Assembly (NCBI RefSeq): GCF_009296185.1
Contig: NZ_WBJR01000005.1
Span: forward strand, 62,001 to 126,000
From: Hydrogenovibrio sp. JE_KL2
GTDB lineage: Bacteria > Pseudomonadota > Gammaproteobacteria > Thiomicrospirales > Thiomicrospiraceae
Reading direction: 5' to 3'
Length of the DNA: 64,000 nucleotides
Shown: piece by piece, positions 2,292-18,749 of the stretch
How positions within the stretch are numbered: the stretch's first letter is position 1
Layout of the letters: every line of letters begins with the position of its first letter
Notes under the pieces: model-generated
Seen by the model: the letters and a program-made list of their open reading frames with translations, nothing else
Databases searched by the model: none
Told to the model about the DNA's origin: nothing
Translations under genes and position numbers: made by a program

Positions 2292-3623
2292 ATGAAAAGA
2301 ATTTCCGTTTTCCTTTTTTTTGCGTTTTTGTTGCCGTCATTCAAGGCAATGGCTAGTGTTAATTTTCAGTCAGCCCTTCAGCTATATAAAGACAAACAGT
2401 ATGAGAAAGCGTATGAAGCCTTTTTGATACTGGCTGATTCCGATTACACCAATGTCGACTATAACTACTATCTAGCTCGTTCCGCCTTTTTCGTTAAAGA
2501 ATACAACGAAGCCATCTCCGCTTATGAACGTATTTTGATTCAATACCCGAACAATGCGCGCTCTAAATTGGAGCTGGGTCGCCTTTATTATGAAATGCAT
2601 CGTTATACCGAAGCGCGAAAATATTTGAATGAGGTGTTGAAGACCGACGCGCCCCAGGCGGTCAAGAATAATATTCGATATTACCTCGCCGGAATGGATC
2701 AGGATGGTGAAAGACTCGCGTTGAATACGGTCAGGGCAACGCTGTTAGGGTCAGTTTTTTATGATTCGAATTTAAATTATTCTCCTGAATCGGATGAAAT
2801 GATTCTTCCATCCGGGAGCTTGAAATCCGCAGCGGATATTGGCGCATGGGGTTCGGAACAGATGTTGGTGCTCAATCATCGTTACGAAAACCCGAATAAA
2901 CAAAGCTATGCTTGGTTGAACGATTTTGTTCTCTATAACAAAGCTTCCCCTGGCAATAGTGATTACAATATTCTTTATGGAAGCTACTCTCCGGCGTTGT
3001 CGTTTCAGCAGGATCGTTGGACATTGGATGCAGGGTTAACGATTGATGGCATGAATTATGGCAAAGACCCTTATATGGTGTCCTATGGTATTTCGCCGAA
3101 AGCGACCTATATGCCGAATTTGACGGAGTACTTCACCACCCAGTTCAGGTTTTTGAAACGTGACTATCAAACCAATAGTACGAAACCTAAAGATTCTAAG
3201 TTTGCACAAATCAGTACCCTGTATCAAAAACGAGTCGGCCCGCTGTTTTCTTGGTATGGACAGGCTGTCCTTGAAAGAGAAACTGCTGATGCCGCACCGA
3301 CAAAGCTTTTAAATGTTGACTACCATCAACTCGGCTTGAAAGCGGGCGTTGCCTACCTGTTTCCTCGAAATTTTACGTTGTCTAGCACATTTGGGTATCA
3401 GGATAAGTTGTTTGAAAATGCTGACCGCTTAACAAAGAATTTTGGGGGCGGGGATGTTAACCAACATGATAAACGCTATTACGGTGAAGTGACCTTGTCA
3501 AAAGATTTCGCCAGAAGTGTTACCACCCAATTACGCGCCAGTCGGATTCAGAATGACTCAAATCTTTCTGTTTATGCTTATCAGAAAAACCTTTATACCT
3601 TCAATGTGATGAAGCGATTTTAG
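2292..3623 (+). CDS. TPR plus outer-membrane beta-barrel protein, Slam/T11SS-like (DUF560), copy 1
   Basis: The 443-residue precursor has a signal peptide (MKRISVFLFFAFLLPSFKAMA). TPR helices follow at about residues 25-140 (QYEKAYEAFL, EYNEAISAYERILIQYPNNA, RYTEARKYLNEVL). From about residue 150 to the end it is rich in alternating hydrophobic/aromatic strands and finishes in phenylalanine (FNVMKRF), as outer-membrane barrels do. TPR followed by a barrel beginning SVFYDSNLNYSPESD is the arrangement of Slam-like (DUF560) proteins, which export TbpB-type cargo across the outer membrane. The adjacent downstream gene encodes a protein with a TbpB-like C-terminal barrel, fitting an exporter-cargo pair. 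The next pair downstream is a paralogous duplicate. Assignment to the export family is by motif reading, not search. Confidence 0.7.
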   Translation: MKRISVFLFFAFLLPSFKAMASVNFQSALQLYKDKQYEKAYEAFLILADSDYTNVDYNYYLARSAFFVKEYNEAISAYERILIQYPNNARSKLELGRLYYEMHRYTEARKYLNEVLKTDAPQAVKNNIRYYLAGMDQDGERLALNTVRATLLGSVFYDSNLNYSPESDEMILPSGSLKSAADIGAWGSEQMLVLNHRYENPNKQSYAWLNDFVLYNKASPGNSDYNILYGSYSPALSFQQDRWTLDAGLTIDGMNYGKDPYMVSYGISPKATYMPNLTEYFTTQFRFLKRDYQTNSTKPKDSKFAQISTLYQKRVGPLFSWYGQAVLERETADAAPTKLLNVDYHQLGLKAGVAYLFPRNFTLSSTFGYQDKLFENADRLTKNFGGGDVNQHDKRYYGEVTLSKDFARSVTTQLRASRIQNDSNLSVYAYQKNLYTFNVMKRF

Positions 3624-3631
3624 GAGGCGGC

Positions 3632-4906
3632 ATGTTAAGAATTACAGTGCTAGTTTTGACACTATTGTTTAGCTTTCAAGTGCTGGCTGCCATCGGAAAG
3701 ATTTCTGCGGTTCGCGGTGAGGCGCACTTCCTTCGTGGTGCTCAGGAAATCGCGATTAATGTTGGTGATATGGTGGAAGAAAAAGACCGGATTAAAACCG
3801 GAAAGAATACTCAGGTTCAGGTCGTGTTCAATGACAGAACCATTGTGACGATTGGAAAGAACACGGATTTTTCAATCCCCCAGTATGTTTACGGTGATGC
3901 CAACACCTCCAAAGCCCAATTCAACCTCGCCAAGGGCGTCTTTAAATCGATTTCCGGCAGAATCGGTAAGCTAGCGCCTCAGCGCTTTAAGATCAAGACG
4001 GCCACTTCTACCATTGGGATAAGAGGAACAACCTATATTGTGCGGGTCATAGGTTCGAAAACCAGTTTGGCGACTTTGAACGGTGCGACTTATATGGAGC
4101 TGAATAGCGGTAAAACCTATGACGTGCCTGCCGGAAAAGAATTGGTTTATAACATTGATACTGGGAAAGTCACCCTTCAAGATGTATCCTCTACTTCGGT
4201 TTCGGTAAATACCAGCACTACAGGCGATAATAAAACAGCAACTGCCGATAATGATAGTGATGGCGGTTCAGGATCAGATGCTGAAGGCACAACCGACGAA
4301 GCTCAGAATGCAGTCGATACGAACACTTCTACAACCCAGACAACGTCACAGAATGTTGAGACAGAAGATGCGAAAGTAAAAGTGATTGCAGGTTCTGATA
4401 CTTACAGCTCTTACGGTTATTGGCTGAACAAGTCGACACAAGAAAAAACTGACCCTTATACCCAGGCGAAATCAGGGTATTCTGCGACAGCGCCAATAGC
4501 CTTGCAGGGCATAGTTGGAGGGCAAAGCTCGTTAACCTATAGCGGTAATTTGGTTGCCGTTTCAGGCACGACCAGTGTGTCAGGAAATGTGACTTTAGAT
4601 GTCGCTAACGGTGAGATTTCTAACGGAAATCTTCAATTTACGATGAACGGTGATGCATGGAATTTTTCTTTTTCTAACGTGACCATTAATACCAATCAAA
4701 ACACAGATACAGGTTATTCTTTTAGTGCGACTTCACTCACAGATGGCGTCTCTGGCAGCGATTATCCCGATACTTATTCAGGAACCGTAAAAGGACGTTT
4801 TTATGGGCCAAATGCTGAAGGCGCTGGTGGCGTATTTGATGTAAACAGGACGCCAAATGGTGGTACAACGAGCAATGCTAAAGGATCTTTTAGCGCCGTG
4901 AAATAG
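3632..4906 (+). CDS. FecR-domain protein with TbpB-like C-terminal domain, putative exported cargo, copy 1
   Basis: The 424-residue protein has a Sec signal peptide without a lipobox (mature start near AIGKI). A FecR domain spans about residues 20-150: GDMVEEKDRIKTGKNTQVQ, TIVTIGKNTDF, then ATSTIGIRGTTYIVRV. A low-complexity Thr/Asn/Asp linker follows (about 165-245). The C-terminal domain contains SGNLVAVSGTTSVSGNVTLDV and ends GRFYGPNAEGAGGVFDV, which resembles the FYGxxAxExGG motif of TbpB beta-barrel domains. GGAGG sits six bases before the ATG, eight bases after the previous stop, so it is co-translated with the putative exporter. FecR domains here are probably structural or sensory rather than anti-sigma, as no sigma factor gene is near. 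Confidence 0.72.
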   Translation: MLRITVLVLTLLFSFQVLAAIGKISAVRGEAHFLRGAQEIAINVGDMVEEKDRIKTGKNTQVQVVFNDRTIVTIGKNTDFSIPQYVYGDANTSKAQFNLAKGVFKSISGRIGKLAPQRFKIKTATSTIGIRGTTYIVRVIGSKTSLATLNGATYMELNSGKTYDVPAGKELVYNIDTGKVTLQDVSSTSVSVNTSTTGDNKTATADNDSDGGSGSDAEGTTDEAQNAVDTNTSTTQTTSQNVETEDAKVKVIAGSDTYSSYGYWLNKSTQEKTDPYTQAKSGYSATAPIALQGIVGGQSSLTYSGNLVAVSGTTSVSGNVTLDVANGEISNGNLQFTMNGDAWNFSFSNVTINTNQNTDTGYSFSATSLTDGVSGSDYPDTYSGTVKGRFYGPNAEGAGGVFDVNRTPNGGTTSNAKGSFSAVK

Positions 4907-4928
4907 GGTGCTAGTAACGAATGAGAAT

Positions 4929-6305
4929 ATGATAATCAATATGAATTCTAGGAAAGCACTGACCATTTTAACGGCGATATTTTGCTCAATTATTTCAACC
5001 TCAATACAGGCACAAGAACAACCAACGCCTGTTGAGAAAAAAGTAATGAGTTACCCACAAGCGTTAGATCTGTATAAGAAAAAGAAGTATCAGGCATCGT
5101 ATCAGGCATTTTTACAGTTGGTTGCTACAGACTATGGAAATGTTAATTACAACTACTACTTAGGACGTTCGGCCTTTTTTATCAAAGATTACCATGAAGC
5201 CATTGGCGCTTATGAGCGTATTTTAATCGGTTATCCTTATAACCAGCGCGCAAAGTTGGAACTCGGGCGTATGTACTATGAACTTGGTGACTTTGTTCAA
5301 TCAAAACGTTATTTGATGGAGGTGTTGGACTCAAACGCGCCTGAAACGGTGAAGAACAATATTCGTGTTTATCTGGCTAAAATGAGCGCCATTGACAATA
5401 AACCGCATAATTCGGTCAGAGCAACATTACTTGGGTCGGTGTTTTACGATTCCAACCTGAATTACTCACCGCAGTCGGATAACTTTCAATTGCCGAGTGG
5501 GACGCTTAATTTCCCTTCGGATATTGGCGCGTGGGGTTCAGAGCAGATGTTGACGGTCAATCATCGTTATGACAATCCTAAAAAGTACGGTTTTGCGTTT
5601 AAAAACGATATGACGCTTTATAACCGTTGGTTACCGAATCAGACGGATTACAATATTTTATTCGGCAGCTATACTCCGGCGTTGTCGTGGCATAAAAAAG
5701 GCTGGACAACGGATGCGGCGCTGTATGTCGATGACATGACTTACGGGAAAAATCCGTATTTAATGTCTTATGGTATTGCGCCGACTGTTAGCTATATGCC
5801 GGATTTGACCCAGTTTGTTACCACACAGTTCAAACTGCTTAAAAAGGATTATCAATCCAATGTCTATCGCGACCGTGATGCACAATATATGCAATTGGCA
5901 ATGTTGTATCAGAAACGAATGGGCGCGCTCTGGACATGGTATGGCCAAGGCATGGTAGAGAGTGAGCAAAAGCAGCGTAGTTCAAACTCTGTGAATGTTG
6001 ACTACCAGTCGTTGACAGCTAGATTGGGGATGAACTACCTCTTTCCGAAAGGTTATAGTGCCGGCGTTTTGGGAGAGTATCAACAGAAACAATATTTACA
6101 GGATGACTTTTGGTTGAAAAGTTTAAGCGGCGCTGATAAGCGTCAAACAGATACCAAGTTGACTGTGACTGCTACGGTTACCAAAGACATACAAAAGACG
6201 CTGTCGGCGCAGTTGAAGTTGTCATTGGTGCAAAACAATTCTACGATTAAGATTTACGAATATCGGAAAGATGTAGTGACACTCAATCTGATTAAACGTT
6301 TTTAG
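4929..6305 (+). CDS. TPR plus outer-membrane beta-barrel protein, Slam/T11SS-like, copy 2
   Basis: This is a paralogue of the protein at 2292-3623 with the same plan: signal peptide (NSRKALTILTAIFCSIISTS), TPR region (YQASYQAFLQLV, DYHEAIGAYERILIGYPYN) and a barrel starting SVFYDSNLNYSPQSD and ending NLIKRF. The strings RATLLGSVFYDSNLNYSP and IGAWGSEQML are shared with copy 1, showing duplication and divergence. A GTG at 4908 overlaps the end of the preceding gene. ATGs at 4929 and 4941 fit the signal peptide better; I give 4929, and the exact start is unsure. The spacing indicates a single operon with both flanking FecR genes. Confidence 0.7.
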   Translation: MIINMNSRKALTILTAIFCSIISTSIQAQEQPTPVEKKVMSYPQALDLYKKKKYQASYQAFLQLVATDYGNVNYNYYLGRSAFFIKDYHEAIGAYERILIGYPYNQRAKLELGRMYYELGDFVQSKRYLMEVLDSNAPETVKNNIRVYLAKMSAIDNKPHNSVRATLLGSVFYDSNLNYSPQSDNFQLPSGTLNFPSDIGAWGSEQMLTVNHRYDNPKKYGFAFKNDMTLYNRWLPNQTDYNILFGSYTPALSWHKKGWTTDAALYVDDMTYGKNPYLMSYGIAPTVSYMPDLTQFVTTQFKLLKKDYQSNVYRDRDAQYMQLAMLYQKRMGALWTWYGQGMVESEQKQRSSNSVNVDYQSLTARLGMNYLFPKGYSAGVLGEYQQKQYLQDDFWLKSLSGADKRQTDTKLTVTATVTKDIQKTLSAQLKLSLVQNNSTIKIYEYRKDVVTLNLIKRF

Positions 6306-6314
6306 GAGAAGCCA

Positions 6315-7688
6315 ATGTTGACTCGTATTTTATTGATGGTTCTGCTGGTGTTATCGACACCGACATTCGCTTCTATTGCCAACGTTTCCGCCATTAAAGG
6401 CGATGCGGTTATCTTGAGAGGAGATCAAAAACTGCCAATCCATCTCGGCGATGCGATTGAGGAGAAGGATCAAATCAAGACCAGTAATGAAACGAAGGTT
6501 CAAATCATTTTTAAAGACCGAACCATTGTCACCATCGGAAAAAACACGCTGTTTTCCGTGCCTGAATACGTTTACGGTGATGCCAAGACTTCAAAGGTTG
6601 AGTTTAAGTTGTCTAAGGGTGTATTCAAGTCAATGACTGGGAAGATCGGCGAAATTGCGAAGCAACGCTTCAAAATTAAAACGGCAACGGCAACCATTGG
6701 GATTCGTGGAACCATCTATATTGTTCGAGTGCAAGGGGATAAAACACAGCTTTCCACCTTGGATGGGGCGACTTATATGCAACTGAATTCAAATGGCGCG
6801 GTATATGATGTGCCTGCCGGCAAGTCGTTGGATTATGATGCCAAAAGCGGTAGTGTCAGTGTGAAAGACCTAACAATCAAAACGGTCATGATCCAAACAG
6901 ATCCACCTCAGTCAGAGAAGGATCAGCTATCGGATGCGATTGAGGCTCAGACTGATGATGTGGGGAACGGAAACGACTCGAACCCATTAGGCTTCAATGC
7001 TGGTGACGGTTATATGACCGCCCGTACCAAAAATAAGGATAACCCAAATGATGTTTATCTGGAAGGGATGACGAATACCCAGCCGGCAGGTGGCGATGAC
7101 TTTGTTTCCACAATGGTTGCTGATAGTAATTTGCCGACAGAGACGGATGGGCAACTGAATCAAACCACTATCGAGATTCCATACCAGGTGGTTGCCGGAA
7201 AAGACAGCTATAACGAGTATGGTTACTGGGCAGATAAAAACTCCGCACAGCTGTCGACACCATTCACCAACCCCTTGCCTGGCATTGCTGAAACGCCTGC
7301 ATCTACTATTAGTGGATTTACAGGTAGTGCCGCTTATTCGGGTAATCTTGTAGCCATTTCGGGTAGTAATCAAGCAACGGGAACGCTCTTGATGCAGGTA
7401 AACTTCGGCACAAACAAGGTCAGCGGTTCTATGACGGACTTAACTTTGGCTGGAAACAAGTGGGATAACATTTTTACCAATGGTACGGTTTCAAGTTCGG
7501 GCGCAATTAGCGTATCCAACTTCAGTTCAAACGGTAATGTCAGCGGCATTACCGGTAATTTAAACGGTAAGCTTTATGGTAATAATGCACAGGGCGTCGC
7601 AGGTACCTTCAATTTGAATGGGACAGCGGCTTCTGGTGGCAGTACCAGTGCTTCCGGTTCCTATGTCGCACATGGCGGTGGGCCATAG
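6315..7688 (+). CDS. FecR-domain protein with TbpB-like C-terminal domain, putative exported cargo, copy 2
   Basis: The 457-residue paralogue of the FecR protein at 3632-4906. Signal peptide to about residue 19, FecR core (GDAIEEKDQIKTSNETKVQ, RTIVTIGKNTLFSVPEY, TATIGIRGTIYIVRV), a longer acidic/Asn-rich linker (about 190-280), then the C-terminal domain (AGKDSYNEYGYWADKN to LYGNNAQGVAGTFNLNG). Copy 1 has FYGPNAEGAGG where this one has LYGNNAQGVAG, so the barrel motif has drifted while the FecR core is better kept. A GGAG ribosome site lies seven bases upstream of the ATG. It is 30 bp upstream of the cyclase gene, implying cotranscription and a possible sensing link. Confidence 0.72.
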   Translation: MLTRILLMVLLVLSTPTFASIANVSAIKGDAVILRGDQKLPIHLGDAIEEKDQIKTSNETKVQIIFKDRTIVTIGKNTLFSVPEYVYGDAKTSKVEFKLSKGVFKSMTGKIGEIAKQRFKIKTATATIGIRGTIYIVRVQGDKTQLSTLDGATYMQLNSNGAVYDVPAGKSLDYDAKSGSVSVKDLTIKTVMIQTDPPQSEKDQLSDAIEAQTDDVGNGNDSNPLGFNAGDGYMTARTKNKDNPNDVYLEGMTNTQPAGGDDFVSTMVADSNLPTETDGQLNQTTIEIPYQVVAGKDSYNEYGYWADKNSAQLSTPFTNPLPGIAETPASTISGFTGSAAYSGNLVAISGSNQATGTLLMQVNFGTNKVSGSMTDLTLAGNKWDNIFTNGTVSSSGAISVSNFSSNGNVSGITGNLNGKLYGNNAQGVAGTFNLNGTAASGGSTSASGSYVAHGGGP

Positions 7689-7718
7689 TAGTAGCGATGG
7701 CGGGCTGGGAGCGGATCT

Positions 7719-9923
7719 GTGACTAAACTTGGAAAGTGGAAACTTTTCAGCCATTTTAGTGTTATTGTCATCGGTTTGACGGTATTGATTGGCGGGTACT
7801 TATATATTCCGCAAACTTTCCTATCCCTTGATAACCGTTTGAGAGATTTCCTCTTTCTTGCTCGTGGCCCTATCCCTACAACGGGTCAGGTGGTGATTGT
7901 CGATTTGGATGATGCCAGTCTTGAGGAATACGGTCAATGGCCCTGGAGTCGTGATTTATTTGCTGAGCTGCTACAAAAGTTGGCTAATGACGGTGCAGGG
8001 ATTGTTGGGCTCGATATTGTGTTTTCCGAAGCAGACAGAACCTCGCCGGCAAAGCTCGCCAAACGCTATCATTTCCCAGACAAGAACTTACCTGATTTTG
8101 ACCAAGTAATGGCCAAGACTCTAGCTCAGACCCCGACTATTCTCGGTTATGTCTTTCAAATGAGCACGCCAACGCCTAAAGCAGATACCCCTAACATTCC
8201 TGCGATCTTTATTGAACGCGGATTTTCGGCAAACACCGACATTCTTCAGCCAAAGGGGGTGTTGCTCAATATCCCGGTATTGCAAAATGCAGCCTACAGC
8301 AGTGGCTTTTTTAACAATGTTCCTGATGAATCAGGGATGGTGCGTAGCGTGCCTTTGGTGATGAAATATGACGATGTCATATACCCTTCTCTGGCGTTGG
8401 AGATGATTCGTATCGCAACGCAAGAAAGCAAAGTGTTTGTTAACTATTCTGACCTAGGTGTTGAATCGATTCAGTTGGGCAAGATGCTTATCCCGACAGA
8501 CCCCGGTGGACGACTGTTTGTAAACTACCGTGGCCCTGGCCATACTTTTCACTACATCAGCGCCGCACGAGTCTTGGAAAACAAAGTTGATCCTAAAGAG
8601 TTGGAAGGCAAGTTTGTCTTAATCGGGACATCTGCTGCCGGACTATTGGACTTGCGGTCCATGCCGTTTGACAACGTTTACCCAGGGGTGGAGGCACATG
8701 CCAACGTTATCGACAATATTCTGAAAGGGGACTTCCTCACGCGACCAAGTTGGGTGATTTCCGCCAATATGCTCATTATTGCGGTGGTGTTTGCCTTCAG
8801 TTATTTGATTTTTGTTCGGTTGTCTGCATTTTGGGCGTTTGTTGCCTTTTTGACGGAAGTGGTTGCTCTCTATTTCTTCTATTTTGAAACCCTCTTCAAA
8901 GAAGGGATTGTCTTTAACATTCTCTTTGGTGTTTTTGCCTTGGGGATGGCGTTTGTCTTCTCTTTGGTCGTGGCGTATTTCTTCGAAACCCGTCAAAAAA
9001 TGATGTTACGTGGCAAGCTTTCAAGTAAGGTGAGCCCGGCGGTTATGGAAGAAATCCTCAAGAACGAAGCCAATAATATTATGGAAGGCGATACACGGGA
9101 AGTCACCGTGTTCTTCTCCGATGTGCGTAACTTCACCAACATTTCCGAAGCTATGCCGAACGCAAAAACGCTTATTACTTTTTTGAATGATTACATGGAA
9201 CCCATGACCGATATCATCGTCAAAGCGCAAGGTACGGTCGATAAGTTTATCGGTGATGCCATCATGGCCTATTGGAATGCGCCGATTGATGTTGAAGACC
9301 ATGCTGACAAAGCGGTGACAGCCAGTTTGCAACAGATAAAAGGCTTGGCTGAAATCAACGAAAAAGTGCGCCAAGACCCACGATTTGAAGCAGTTGTCAA
9401 AATGGCCGATGATGCTGGGGTACCGCCCATTGATATCGGTATCGGGCTCAATACGGGGGAAGCCGTGGTAGGTGAGATGGGCTCCGCCGGACGAAGCGAC
9501 TATACCGTTATCGGAGACCCTATTAACTTGGGTGCGCGCTTGGAATCTTTGTGTAAATTCTATAACTCTAAAGTGACCATTTCCAATTTCACCAAGGATC
9601 TATTGAAGCAAGACTATATTTTCCGTTTTCTGGATTTGGTGACGGTGAAAGGTAAAACCGAACCTGTAGAAGTCTGGCAGGTACAAGACTTCGGTCAGGC
9701 AGAAGGTCGTTTAAAAGAAGAGCTCGATAAATACCACCAAGCCATTGCACTGTATAAAGATGCCAAATTCGATCAGGCGCTGACAATTTTCAAAGAAGTT
9801 GAAGCCTGGTCGGATAAAACCAATCAGAATGTTTACAAAATGTATATCGAGCGTTGTGAGCATTACATTGAAGAACCACCGGAAGACTTTAACGGTGTGT
9901 TTGTCCATAAAACCAAAGGTTAA
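7719..9923 (+). CDS. CHASE2-domain class III adenylate/guanylate cyclase
   Basis: 734 residues from a GTG with GGGAG upstream. Order: one membrane helix (about 10-29), periplasmic CHASE2 domain (about 40-335, with DLDDASLEEYGQWPWSRD and FVNYRGPGHTF), three membrane helices (about 345-423), then a class III nucleotide cyclase domain (about 458-650) and a C-terminal TPR-like stretch. Catalytic features are visible: metal-binding Asp in VFFSDVRNFT, KFIGDAIMA (base-recognition Lys and second metal Asp), and IGDPINLGARLE with the transition-state Asn and Arg. It should make cAMP (less likely cGMP) in response to a periplasmic signal. Its place after the FecR genes suggests that signal relates to the FecR/secretion module; pairing of CHASE2 cyclases with FecR proteins recurs in proteobacteria. 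Confidence 0.88.
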   Translation: MTKLGKWKLFSHFSVIVIGLTVLIGGYLYIPQTFLSLDNRLRDFLFLARGPIPTTGQVVIVDLDDASLEEYGQWPWSRDLFAELLQKLANDGAGIVGLDIVFSEADRTSPAKLAKRYHFPDKNLPDFDQVMAKTLAQTPTILGYVFQMSTPTPKADTPNIPAIFIERGFSANTDILQPKGVLLNIPVLQNAAYSSGFFNNVPDESGMVRSVPLVMKYDDVIYPSLALEMIRIATQESKVFVNYSDLGVESIQLGKMLIPTDPGGRLFVNYRGPGHTFHYISAARVLENKVDPKELEGKFVLIGTSAAGLLDLRSMPFDNVYPGVEAHANVIDNILKGDFLTRPSWVISANMLIIAVVFAFSYLIFVRLSAFWAFVAFLTEVVALYFFYFETLFKEGIVFNILFGVFALGMAFVFSLVVAYFFETRQKMMLRGKLSSKVSPAVMEEILKNEANNIMEGDTREVTVFFSDVRNFTNISEAMPNAKTLITFLNDYMEPMTDIIVKAQGTVDKFIGDAIMAYWNAPIDVEDHADKAVTASLQQIKGLAEINEKVRQDPRFEAVVKMADDAGVPPIDIGIGLNTGEAVVGEMGSAGRSDYTVIGDPINLGARLESLCKFYNSKVTISNFTKDLLKQDYIFRFLDLVTVKGKTEPVEVWQVQDFGQAEGRLKEELDKYHQAIALYKDAKFDQALTIFKEVEAWSDKTNQNVYKMYIERCEHYIEEPPEDFNGVFVHKTKG

Positions 9924-9968: not shown

Positions 9969-10010
9969 TGCTTTCAATTCCATCAAAATCTATGCTAAGA
10001 TGATGTCACA

Positions 10011-10113
10011 TCTCTCGGGGTGCGAAGTTCTTTTTTTCAAAAAGAACAGAGCTGAGACTGCGCAAGCTAAACCCGTTGAACTTGAACTGGTTAAGACCAG
10101 CGTAGGGAAGAGA
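10011..10113 (+). promoter_or_regulatory. TPP (THI-box) riboswitch upstream of thiC
   Basis: The conserved TPP aptamer elements appear in order: TCTCTCGGGGTGC, a P3 hairpin (GTTCTTTTTTT / AAAAAGAAC), GCTGAGA, ACCCGTTGAACTTGAACTGG, then TTAAGACCAGCGTAGGGAA and the closing AGAGA that pairs with TCTCT. It is about 210 bases upstream of the thiC start and should lower expression of the thi operon when thiamine pyrophosphate is abundant. No obvious poly-T terminator follows, so control may act on translation or by Rho. Bases 10114-10324 show no gene. Confidence 0.95.
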
Positions 10114-10306
10114 ACTCCAAGTCAATAGCCTCATTATCATGATGGCTACCACACTTTGATGACTTAAGAACCTTCAATCAAGAAGAGATGAATAAGCATC
10201 AACGTGTTCCCACATTTGTTTATTCACCTTCTGATTTTGCCTTGTTGCTATAGGCTTATTGGTTTTTATTCACTCTCATTACGCGGTTTTTCCAACACTT
10301 TTTTAA

Positions 10307-16419: not shown

Positions 16420-16478
16420 CTCTATAATGCGCCAACTTATTGATATTTCAATTAATCCAATAAATACACAAATTTGAA

Positions 16479-16575
16479 TGCCGAGGGGCGGTCTTCCCGA
16501 ATGATGGGATGTACCTGAGATCCGTTGTGGAAACCCTTGAACCTGATCCAGGTAATACTGGCGTAGGAACGGGCA
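16479..16575 (+). promoter_or_regulatory. TPP riboswitch upstream of the TonB-dependent receptor
   Basis: Aptamer elements in order: TGCCGAGGGGCGG, an arm with GTCTTCCCGAATGATGGGA, CCTGAGAT, ACCCTTGAACCTGATCCAGG, TAATACTGGCGTAGGAAC, closed by GGGCA pairing with TGCC. This predicts that the downstream receptor, YkoF-like and PnuT genes are thiamine-repressed and serve thiamine uptake. An open frame from 16509 runs through the aptamer and is not the true start of the receptor. Confidence 0.95.
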
Positions 16576-16611
16576 GCACATCCAAAACACGCGTGAATGC
16601 GTGCCTTTGCC

Positions 16612-16639
16612 GCTTCCTGTTCATAAAAACTAAGGAAGC
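16612..16639 (+). promoter_or_regulatory. Probable expression platform sequestering the receptor's ribosome site
   Basis: GCTTCCT (16612-16618) is the exact complement of AGGAAGC (16633-16639), which contains the Shine-Dalgarno core AAGGA ahead of the GTG at 16644. Pairing would hide the ribosome site. With the TPP aptamer 37 bases upstream, this looks like a translational OFF switch. Confidence 0.65.
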
Positions 16640-16643
16640 TTTG

Positions 16644-18749
16644 GTGAAACTCTGCAACACAAAATCGTTTATCAAACATCTACTCCCGCTATTGTCGCTG
16701 TCCGTTTTGGCGAATACCGCGCAGGCAAAAGAGAAAACCCATTCCACTGACACCAAACTGGCGCCTGTGACGGTACAAGCCGATTTACGCGGCGCGGAAG
16801 AGAGCAAACTGCCAGTGAGCACCACGGTGATGGATGCGGCGAACTTGCAGGACAGAGGCGCGAACCAGTTGGAAGATGTGTTGTTGCAAACGCCAAACGT
16901 CAACTTCGCCGGACAGGATGCGCGTGCCAAGCACATTCAGATTCGCGGTATGGGTGAGCGTGACGACTACACTGGCGCACCGAATCCAAGTGTAGGCTTG
17001 GCGATTGACGGCATTGATTTCAGTGGGATCGGCATGATCTCCAACCTGTTTGATGTCAAGCAGGTGGAAGTATTGCGCGGGCCGCAAAGCACGCGTTATG
17101 GCGATACCGCCATTGCCGGTTTGATCAATATTCAAACCAATGATCCAACGCCTTATCAGGAAAGTATGATCGAAACCTCAATCGGTAACGGTAGTCTGAC
17201 CGAAGTGGGCTTGATGACCAGTGGTCCGTTCTCAGACAAAAAAGACAGTCCGCAGTATCGCGTCGCCATCCAAAAGCACTATGACAACGGTTTTCATGAC
17301 AATGCCTATTTGCATCGCGACGATACCAACAAGCATGACGAGTTGAATGTGCGCGGTAAATTGCGTTTTTTCCCATCCGATAAATCGCAGTTGGATTTGA
17401 CGCTGTTGCACGCCGATTACAACGATGGTTATGACGCTTGGTCATTGAACAACACCTTAACGACTCTGTCGGATCAGCCAGGTAAAGATACTCAAAGAAC
17501 GCACGCCGGGGCGATCAAGTATCAGTATTTCGGGCGAGTAGCGACCTTAACGAGCACCACAACCGCGGCGAACTCCGACATGGTTTACAGTTACGATCAG
17601 GACTGGACGTACAAAGGCTATTACTCGACACCGTTTACCGGAACGTTTAAAGACGCCAAAAACCGCAGCAGTTTTTCGCAAGAACTACGTTGGGTATCAC
17701 AACCGAATGCCAGAATCTTCAATCGATCCACCGATTGGTTGTTCGGTGTTTTCGCTTCGCGCTTGGAAGAGAAAAACAAAATCGACAGTGATTTCAACGA
17801 TAACGGAACCCAGTACCCTTGGCATGTCACTTCTAAGTACGAGGTGAACAAATTCGCGGGATTTGGGCAGTTGGACACGCATTTTTCATCGAAGACCGTG
17901 CTGACGACGGGGGTGCGTTTGGAGCATCACGAGTCCAAGTTCAACAGTACTGACGGCGACAACTTCAAGCCGGATGAAAACCTGGTCGGTGCCAACATCA
18001 GTTTGACGCAAACCCTGACACAGCATCAGTCGGCGTATGTTTCGGTGGCAAGAGGTTACAAGGCAGGAGGGTTCAACCCCGGTCTGCCTAATGACAAGAA
18101 GTATTTGACCTACTATAAAACCGAGACGGCGATGAACTATGAAATCGGTCACCGTATGAATTTGGCAAACAATCGCCTGAAAACCCAAGTGGATGTGTTC
18201 TATATGGACAGACAAAATCCGCAATTCGATGGTTATACCTACATCGGTTCCAACTACGTGTTCTATACTGAAAACTTCGATAAAGCCACCAACTACGGTT
18301 TGGAAGGTCAGCTGGATTGGCAGGTGAATGACCAGTGGAAAACTTTTGTTAACCTGGGCTTGTTGAACACCACGGTGAAAGGCAGTTCTTCATCCGGTGC
18401 TTTCACCATTGACGGTCGTCAGCAACCGCATGCGCCGAATTATCAGTTCCTATTGGGTGGGCAATATCGAAGCCATGGCTATGTCGCGCGTTTGGAATAT
18501 ACTGGAATGGATGCGTTTTATTTCAGTAACTCCAATAATGCAAAATCCAAGCCTTATCAGCTGGTGAATGCGCGCGTTGGCTATGAGGCGAAAAATTGGG
18601 ATGCGACCCTGTGGGTGAAAAACCTGACAGATGAGCGTTATGCGACCAGAGGATTTTTCTTCGGAAACGATCCGACTTGGACAAACAAAAAATACATTCG
18701 TTTGGGTGATCCAAGAAGCTTTGGCATTACCACCCATGTTTATTTCTAA
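16644..18749 (+). CDS. TonB-dependent outer-membrane receptor, probably for thiamine
   Basis: About 701 residues from the GTG at 16644, chosen because it follows AAGGA and opens a signal peptide (FIKHLLPLLSLSVLANTAQA). The plug domain follows (LAPVTVQADLRGAEE, EVLRGPQSTRYGDTAIAGLINIQT), then a 22-strand-type barrel ending in NLTDERYATRGFFF and a terminal aromatic (ITTHVYF). TonB receptors import scarce ligands across the outer membrane using TonB/ExbBD energy. Substrate is inferred as thiamine or a phosphate ester from the TPP riboswitch and the YkoF-like and PnuT genes behind it. An upstream in-frame extension to 16509 covers the riboswitch and is rejected. Confidence 0.9.
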   Translation: MKLCNTKSFIKHLLPLLSLSVLANTAQAKEKTHSTDTKLAPVTVQADLRGAEESKLPVSTTVMDAANLQDRGANQLEDVLLQTPNVNFAGQDARAKHIQIRGMGERDDYTGAPNPSVGLAIDGIDFSGIGMISNLFDVKQVEVLRGPQSTRYGDTAIAGLINIQTNDPTPYQESMIETSIGNGSLTEVGLMTSGPFSDKKDSPQYRVAIQKHYDNGFHDNAYLHRDDTNKHDELNVRGKLRFFPSDKSQLDLTLLHADYNDGYDAWSLNNTLTTLSDQPGKDTQRTHAGAIKYQYFGRVATLTSTTTAANSDMVYSYDQDWTYKGYYSTPFTGTFKDAKNRSSFSQELRWVSQPNARIFNRSTDWLFGVFASRLEEKNKIDSDFNDNGTQYPWHVTSKYEVNKFAGFGQLDTHFSSKTVLTTGVRLEHHESKFNSTDGDNFKPDENLVGANISLTQTLTQHQSAYVSVARGYKAGGFNPGLPNDKKYLTYYKTETAMNYEIGHRMNLANNRLKTQVDVFYMDRQNPQFDGYTYIGSNYVFYTENFDKATNYGLEGQLDWQVNDQWKTFVNLGLLNTTVKGSSSSGAFTIDGRQQPHAPNYQFLLGGQYRSHGYVARLEYTGMDAFYFSNSNNAKSKPYQLVNARVGYEAKNWDATLWVKNLTDERYATRGFFFGNDPTWTNKKYIRLGDPRSFGITTHVYF

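Follow-up and report, generated by a model that had tools for sequence, protein, structure and literature searches.

In the stretch of Hydrogenovibrio sp. JE_KL2 DNA analysed here (the window; 64 kb, C10:62001-126000 of the 2.44-Mb genome, genome handle G000), five close-packed open reading frames (ORFs), all on the plus strand between window positions 2292 and 9923, encode two tandem pairs of a TPR-barrel protein and a FecR protein with a TbpB-type C-terminus, followed by a CHASE2 adenylate cyclase. The ORFs, their positions and the paired arrangement agree with those described in an earlier sequence-only reading of the window. The recurrence of this exporter/cargo/cyclase set suggests a route by which a signal passes from the surface to the cytoplasm, and the explanation of the whole that we regard as best, with the chances evenly balanced, is a trans-envelope signalling unit with cyclic AMP (cAMP) output. 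The broader finding is a branch of Slam-like barrels that is paired with FecR and, in certain lineages, connected with a CHASE2 cyclase as well.

The first pair consists of an exporter-like protein of 443 amino acids (aa) (P0001, 2292..3623), with a signal peptide judged by eye, TPRs and a divergent Slam-like barrel, and of its putative cargo of 424 aa (P0002, 3632..4906), with a Cys-free signal peptide (by eye), a FecR domain, a linker and a TbpB-type C-terminus. The second pair comprises a 465-aa exporter-like protein (P0003, 4908..6305) with TPR helices and a 14-strand barrel, and a 457-aa cargo (P0004, 6315..7688) in which FecR (about residues 20-190) is followed by a disordered linker and an 8-strand barrel (338-454). 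The 734-aa cyclase (P0005, 7719..9923), with CHASE2 and a class III catalytic domain, closes the unit, whose intergenic gaps measure, in order, 8, 1, 9 and 30 bp. Promoter and terminator scans gave chance-level results only.

By sequence comparison, the barrels of the unit are assigned to the Slam/SlipAM family, as members of a divergent branch. P0003 scored 37.7 bits with the Pfam model SlipAM (Slam barrel, DUF560), whose cut-off is 22, and P0001 scored 41.4 bits with TPR_19; the two proteins are 58% identical in the TPR part and 49% in the barrel. Over 38 named loci, SlipAM on the unit's own barrel was over the cut-off in 19, below it in 5 and unseen in 14, the positions of barrel and SlipAM match being compared locus by locus (L140 has two hits, similarly placed on separate contigs, and was counted as below by its frame length). 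Additionally, of 10 canonical Slam loci, 8 had their barrel recognised, at 52-98 bits, by a profile built from FecR-linked barrels, and 4 had a match to the TbpB profile. In a quick maximum-likelihood tree of 89 barrels, which has several long branches and an unclean outgroup and in which L057 and L059 were kept despite weak hits, 81 barrels, including all 72 FecR-linked ones, were split from the 8 canonical rows with an SH-aLRT support of 97. P0001 was placed beside the clade of P0003; the duplication that gave the window its two exporters preceded the split of three related genomes.

Two of the proteins, P0003 and P0004, were folded with AlphaFold, using alignments of 40 and 32 rows, respectively. 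The P0003 model (mean predicted local distance difference test score, pLDDT, 90.6) has TPR helices at residues 49-163 and, by our own count, 14 long strands, one of them broken. The best PDB neighbours of its barrel are barrels such as CymA (Z 22.3, 3.2 Å, 276 residues), and those of its N-terminus are TPR proteins; no solved Slam structure was among the 50 PDB matches listed, an absence that is uninformative on family membership. The unit resembles Slam and the type XI secretion system (T11SS) in joining TPRs to a 14-strand barrel and in the adjoining gene, which encodes a partner with a C-terminal 8-strand TbpB-type barrel. It differs in that its barrels diverge from the canonical Slams used, the N-terminus of the cargo is a FecR domain, a CHASE2 cyclase belongs to the operon, and no iron or haem genes were recognised next to it.

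Both cargos carry FecR (Pfam cut-off 24), with 55.1 bits in P0002 and 53.5 bits in P0004; in the cargos the domain follows an apparent signal peptide and has no other Pfam domain N-terminal to it. P0004 narrowly exceeded two further Pfam cut-offs, TbpB_B_D (27.3 against 26) and FHBP_C (28.6 against 28.1), and reached 41.8 bits with the NCBIfam model slam_lipo, below its cut-off of 80. In the AlphaFold model of P0004, the one cargo that was folded (mean pLDDT 76.5; predicted TM-score 0.51), the FecR region and the C-terminal barrel exceed 90 in most blocks and are joined by a linker of about 110 residues, with pLDDT below 50 at 211-323. Residues 49-198 match the cell-surface-signalling (CSS) domain of PupR (6ovk_R; Z 16.5, 2.6 Å, 140 residues), and the C-terminal part matches NHBA (290-456, Z 16.4), fHbp (323-457, Z 15.3), HphA (315-455, Z 13.3) and TbpB (317-455, Z 12.9). 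This head is matched, too, by OmpX (Z 13.2) and Ail (Z 12.2), two unrelated outer-membrane barrels of 8 strands. NHBA and fHbp outscore these two, and HphA and TbpB are level with them; by itself the fold therefore lacks specificity, and part of the argument depends on the sequence models. The expected TbpB-type barrel at the C-terminus of a FecR protein was accordingly recovered in P0004 as a fold of NHBA/fHbp/TbpB type. Among 32 cargo members (P0002, P0004 and 30 others chosen for a TbpB match to our own profile), TbpB_B_D matched 27 and FecR all 32 at E ≤ 0.1, and slam_lipo matched 23 at E ≤ 0.01. An artefactual TbpB similarity was rejected, as the independent Pfam and NCBIfam models and the fold search agree.

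A sequence check found no Cys in P0002 or P0004, and therefore no lipobox, as the sequence-only reading had noted. This is not odd for a cargo of this type, because soluble TbpBBD cargo of T11SS is already known, according to the consulted parts of PMC8406197. The linker of P0002 measures about 72 aa and is rich in D, E, N, Q, S, T and G. FecR-to-head linkers of 52-655 residues (median 168) were found in 50 of 77 FecR proteins beside strong hits of the iterated barrel profile (the weak hits L057, L059, L061 and L062 were excluded from these counts), lengths that would suffice to span the outer membrane. P0002 and P0004 are 62% identical in FecR and 31% in the C-terminal head, so that between the two pairs of the window FecR is the best-kept part and the head the least.

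P0005 scored 216.5 bits with CHASE2 and 73.9 bits with Guanylate_cyc (Pfam). A hydrophobic segment at 13-31 is followed by the periplasmic CHASE2 domain, hydrophobic segments within 346-419 and the class III catalytic domain. Five residues (D468, K509, D513, N603 and R607) are kept in 14 of 14 aligned cyclases, and D594 in 11 of 14, P0005 included; we take these six to be the metal, transition-state and adenine-specific residues of a class III cyclase. On both domain and residue evidence, P0005 is a predicted CHASE2 class III adenylate cyclase. In several loci of the family the cyclase gene is followed by one encoding 790-810 aa, and the two such proteins that were scanned have PDEase_II, GAF and HD domains; going by the family name, this is a putative cAMP-degrading enzyme. 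The window's genome also encodes five cyclic-nucleotide-binding (cNMP-binding) proteins.

In order to find relatives of the unit, 113 related genomes were searched, and 40 stretches were taken and annotated with profiles grown from the window proteins. In the window's family, which by handle numbers accounts for 62 genomes of the set, 11 genomes carry the three parts as a contiguous unit (G000, G003, G004, G005, G010, G026, G030, G038, G039, G044 and G046); in G019 the exporter-cargo pair lies on one contig and the cyclase at the start of another. The gene order of the family units is variable, the pair occurs in one or two copies, and in G046 two cargos stand with a single exporter. When relatives were sought with the CHASE2 part of the unit cyclases and the best 80 of 566 were kept, all three parts were found in 36 loci, 27 with and 9 without a TbpB match in the FecR protein; any position within the fetched sequence, at most 10 kb to either side, was accepted, and 36/80 is not a natural frequency. 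The remaining loci held a cyclase and FecR without the barrel (13, some on short contigs), a cyclase alone (28, several on short contigs) or other combinations (3). L131 and L133, which come from the same genomes as L081 and L085, are counted among the 36 and were dropped from the tree, distance and linker counts. The hosts belong to the Gammaproteobacteria, Campylobacterota and Desulfobacterota and include a Synergistaceae bacterium (Sulfurimonas, Arcobacter, Sulfurospirillum, Sulfurovum and Nitrincola are among those named), with at least five gene orders or orientations. The neighbourhood survey thus found the three-part unit in other genomes and phyla and in several gene orders, and a chance neighbourhood was rejected on this recurrence. 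In six of the nine TbpB-negative loci the FecR proteins measure only 213-273 aa, which indicates that FecR is the constant part of the unit and the head is not.

A SlipAM scan of 369 gammaproteobacterial genomes gave 45 matches, which are not equivalent to genes (those of G247 are split pieces) and of which 9 are below the family cut-off. They were divided, at a border set after the scores had been seen, into canonical (>50 bits, n=14) and divergent (18-50 bits, n=31) matches. FecR was found within 3 kb of 23 of the 31 divergent matches and of none of the 14 canonical ones, at a rough chance rate of 0.7%. Moreover, counted from lists, a CHASE2 gene is present somewhere in 20 of 21 genomes with a FecR-linked barrel, the sole exception being a 75%-complete genome, and in 26 of 51 genomes of the same class.

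Several of the loci collected in these searches showed other arrangements. L087-L090, all from G095, contain several copies of the unit or of its parts, some apparently broken into short frames. In the same family, L056-L064, L072 and L082 represent another type of FecR-CHASE2 locus. Its cyclase, where present, has about 580-610 aa, and some of these loci encode, beside FecR, a protein of about 345 aa that is matched by the barrel profile (only weakly so outside L082) and by no Pfam model above its cut-off. Four further loci of the family (L065, L066, L068 and L078) have barrels of the branch and a TbpB-type partner with neither FecR nor CHASE2 in the vicinity, a pattern suggestive of secondary loss; their TbpB match is weak in L065 and L068 and, in L078, was obtained by Pfam only and below the cut-off. 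In L203 (G184), two large FecR proteins stand beside one exporter, and the one that was scanned has a LysM match below the cut-off that recalls the Burkholderia FecR-LysM proteins. On plasmid p1 of Shinella sp. H4-D48 (L220), a unit with a TPR-barrel recognised by our own profile, a FecR protein with FHBP_C/TbpB below the cut-off and a CHASE2 cyclase directly adjoins NHLP bacteriocin export genes. Ten relatives of the cyclase (L093-L102; 27-37% identity) lie on contigs filed as viral in IMG/VR, which are possibly cellular.

Pairwise p-distances of six domains were compared by rank correlation over the 37 loci having all six. FecR correlated with CHASE2 and with the catalytic domain at 0.83 each, and these two correlated with each other at 0.84; the TbpB domain correlated with CHASE2 at 0.29 and with FecR at 0.23, despite the shared polypeptide, and at 0.51 with TPR and 0.42 with the barrel. 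The partial correlation of FecR with CHASE2, given the catalytic domain and TbpB, was 0.45 (0/500 permutations as high), and, given the catalytic domain and FecR, TbpB had partial correlations of 0.47 with TPR (0/500) and 0.13 with CHASE2 (52/500). In 500 subsamples (70% of 30 non-redundant loci), the excess of FecR-CHASE2 over TbpB-CHASE2 was always at least 0.28, and that of TbpB-TPR over FecR-TPR was always positive (minimum 0.01). Such correlations reflect co-inheritance, which is not contact; what stands is that, on these distances, FecR appears to belong with the cyclase and the fused head appears to evolve, or to be exchanged, more freely.

In the FecA-FecR-FecI and PupB-PupR systems, an outer-membrane barrel acts through a periplasmic FecR-type domain on an output at the inner membrane. 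The unit shares with them the fold of the PupR CSS domain found in P0004, and differs in having no cytoplasmic anti-sigma part, sigma factor or TonB receptor and in its cyclase output; no sigma-factor gene was found among the five abutting genes (ORF list and Pfam), and a classic FecIR system was rejected on the lack of a sigma factor and an anti-sigma part. In Sinorhizobium meliloti, the plasmid gene that overlaps cyaK upstream has a 1197-aa product, in which Pfam places FecR at 66-160 and which also contains TPR repeats. This gene is presumably nsrA, with which we equated it by position and length and in line with a 2018 study. In the consulted parts of the literature, to which all citations here refer, cAMP signalling through CHASE2 cyclases, CyaK included, requires NsrA, a protein of the outer membrane (PMC7529298, PMC13001267) whose residues 600-1200 form a barrel (PMC7529298). 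NsrA-CyaK and CyaD1-D2 therefore resemble the unit in having FecR, TPR and an outer-membrane barrel beside a CHASE2 cyclase and required for the response; NsrA differs in being a single 1197-aa chain, where the window has two chains, and profile and Pfam scans found no TbpB domain in it. CyaD1 without CHASE2 makes cAMP constitutively (PMC5498481), so CHASE2 is probably a brake there. The BiofilmReg operon of Burkholderia likewise pairs a FecR-domain protein with a CHASE2 sensor, but the sensor is a histidine kinase, the partner is a LysM-FecR protein and no barrel is mentioned in the parts consulted of PMC5192318, which in 2016 called what CHASE2 senses unknown.

A Campylobacterota cluster of a CHASE2 cyclase, a phosphodiesterase, a FecR protein and a TPR protein was noted in 2022 (PMC9239204). 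Many of our Campylobacterota loci consist of a cyclase, a FecR protein and a TPR-barrel, and the published cluster is very probably the same kind of locus; the window differs in that its phosphodiesterase-GAF-HD protein, fused and adjacent in relatives, is encoded by two genes of divergent orientation (G000:C10:36973-39482), some 25 kb upstream of the five genes. The main text of two T11SS surveys (PMC12282271, PMC8406197) is without FecR, cyclase or CHASE, and in the open-access papers searched we found nothing that joins Slam, T11SS or DUF560 with FecR or CHASE2. The statement that no characterised system has this composition has to be narrowed, given that the Campylobacterota cluster had been noted and NsrA-CyaK studied genetically. 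The single components are known, as are parts of the pattern; what is new, as far as the open-access papers searched show, is the way they are joined and the proposed half-exported sensor described below.

In the proposed mechanism, the TPR-barrel would be a divergent T11SS outer-membrane protein that carries the TbpB-type head of its partner to the surface, a step which homology and fold make probable. The FecR domain would stay in the periplasm, tied to the surface head by the disordered linker passing through or beside the exporter; that FecR is in fact retained while the head is outside is, by analogy, an evenly poised proposition. Fusions of TbpB or HrpC to glutathione S-transferase (GST) stopped surface export or secretion (PMC8406197), and a folded FecR domain could similarly act as an export stop. 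FecR would then dock on the periplasmic CHASE2 domain and set the activity of the cyclase, so that a change at the head or exporter would become a change in cAMP. The coupling of FecR to the cyclase is supported by the recurrence of the unit, the distance correlations and the NsrA precedent, and it is very likely that the genes form one functional unit in which FecR goes with the cyclase. Two exporter-cargo pairs feeding one cyclase may represent two surface inputs with one output; as would be expected of that, the FecR domains of the two cargos are far more alike than their heads.

The sequence-only reading had supposed that the state of export is sensed. A signal passed on by a retained FecR domain is the better fit, given that some partners are bare FecR proteins without a TbpB barrel. 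We suggest, tentatively and with somewhat less than even confidence, that the secretion event itself serves as the sensor: the head would be threaded out, FecR held as a stop, and the half-exported protein would form a stable link to the CHASE2 cyclase. One cyclase would read two such links in the window, and the FecR-paired Slam-like branch would work likewise in several phyla. If so, a large uncharacterised branch of Slam-like barrels would gain a signalling function and not export only, CHASE2 would appear to sense a FecR domain, and one polypeptide would be shown to bridge the outer and inner membranes. The predictions lend themselves to tests both in environmental sulfur oxidisers and in E. 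coli in the laboratory.

A number of results weigh against this signalling unit. The resemblance to Slam exporters proposed earlier is borne by P0003 and by the divergent branch; P0001, taken alone, did not reach SlipAM at E ≤ 1 and remained below the cut-offs of TPR_Slam (22.8 against 35.2 bits) and BBP2_2 (15.5 against 23.7 bits), and among 40 unit barrels at E ≤ 0.1, BBP2_2, another barrel family, matched almost as many (21) as SlipAM (22). P0002 scored 24.3 bits with TbpB_B_D, 1.7 short of the cut-off of 26. CHASE2 lay within 10 kb of only 7 of the 31 divergent SlipAM matches (0 of the 14 canonical ones), and FecR within 5 kb of only 14 of 66 CHASE2 hits in 35 genomes; since linkage to FecR is common and that to CHASE2 sparse, the exporter-FecR pair is the core, with the cyclase adjacent in some lineages only. 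Over 48 loci, the partial correlation of FecR with the catalytic domain given CHASE2 (0.39) is near that of FecR with CHASE2 given the catalytic domain (0.47), so FecR tracks both about equally well. The proposed wiring to the cyclase therefore has the recurring gene orders and the distance correlations on its side, and from the correlations CHASE2 cannot be named as the contact in preference to the catalytic domain. When patristic distances are used, FecR follows TPR as well (partial 0.40, 0/500); when seven Desulfobacterota-type loci are left out, the excess of TbpB-TPR over FecR-TPR shrinks to almost nothing (0.44 against 0.38); and TbpB distances are near saturation, which lowers all TbpB correlations. 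The correlations of the barrel with CHASE2 (0.64) and FecR (0.55) exceed that with TbpB (0.42), and in 27 of the 77 FecR proteins next to strong barrel hits no TbpB domain could be detected, so that export of a head cannot explain all loci.

The last two points would be expected if the TPR-barrel were a receptor and not an exporter, barrel and TPR sensing a ligand and moving FecR against CHASE2, as in NsrA, with the TbpB-type domain as a periplasmic or plug-like accessory. This alternative, which we consider rather unlikely, draws further on NsrA, whose FecR, TPR and barrel (PMC7529298) are required for perception through CHASE2 cyclases, and on the GST fusions that were not exported (PMC8406197), as a folded FecR domain may block export altogether. 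Against it, the barrels are of the Slam family, the C-terminal domain is of T11SS-cargo type, and the TbpB and TPR distances co-vary beyond what the catalytic domain and FecR account for. The NsrA barrel itself, represented by a single sequence, did not align with the unit barrels (hhalign probability 0.1), which takes from the precedent for a receptor and for the signalling unit alike.

An improbable alternative is that export takes the entire FecR-TbpB protein, which is then set free or displayed in the manner of hemophilin or a leptospiral adhesin, with the cyclase only regulating it or sensing a secretion block. The soluble TbpBBD cargo of T11SS (PMC8406197) is a precedent for this, and models of leptospiral FecR-type surface proteins match many of the 32 cargo members at E ≤ 0.01 (Lsa33 in 22, LipL45 in 18). 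The FecR distances nevertheless follow those of CHASE2 and of the catalytic domain no less closely than these two follow each other, the TbpB distances follow them far less well, and a cyclase with FecR and without a barrel occurs in the 13 of 80 loci mentioned above, some on short contigs.

Still less credible, and in our view very unlikely, is a LapA-like retention in which a FecR plug is cleaved by LapG to free the surface head, with cAMP as a side output. The NCBIfam model retention_LapA matches 23 of the 32 cargos (E ≤ 0.01), and a short N-terminal piece of P0004 matches 5ix9, a 'cell surface anchoring domain', over 62 columns with a root-mean-square deviation of 0.9 Å. P0004 reached only 25.2 bits against the retention_LapA cut-off of 50, which also weighs against the signalling unit in that retention of FecR is argued there by analogy. 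In 38 genomes with FecR-linked barrels, a selection from the unit-bearing ones and not all of them, the LapG-family peptidase PF06035 was found in 18, the window's included, and not in the other 20. Neither P0002 nor P0004 contains [TAP]AA[GV], which we take to be the di-alanine cleavage pattern of LapG.

Finally, a T11SS for iron or haem acquisition with a cyclase adjacent by chance, in line with canonical T11SS loci, which serve TbpB and hemophores (PMC12282271, PMC8406197), and with a TonB-dependent receptor gene 6.6 kb downstream of the five-gene unit, was rejected as having the slightest chance of all, since no iron or haem gene was recognised in or beside the operon (ORFs judged by eye), the receptor's own thiamine pyrophosphate (TPP) riboswitch suggests thiamine and the three-part unit recurs over several phyla.

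That riboswitch (16474-16587, plus strand) precedes the receptor gene (16509-18749), which probably serves thiamine uptake. The next gene 3' of the cyclase is thiC-like, as judged by eye, and has a TPP riboswitch of its own at 10006-10125 (plus strand), which marks it as a unit separate from the five-gene operon. Carboxysome and RuBisCO genes are present in the window, and the source organism is probably a chemolithoautotroph. Just 5' of the unit, at 1643-2104 on the plus strand, lies a gene for a PilZ-domain protein (47.4 bits) that is kept in G010 and G003; its position hints at a cyclic di-GMP input beside the cAMP unit.

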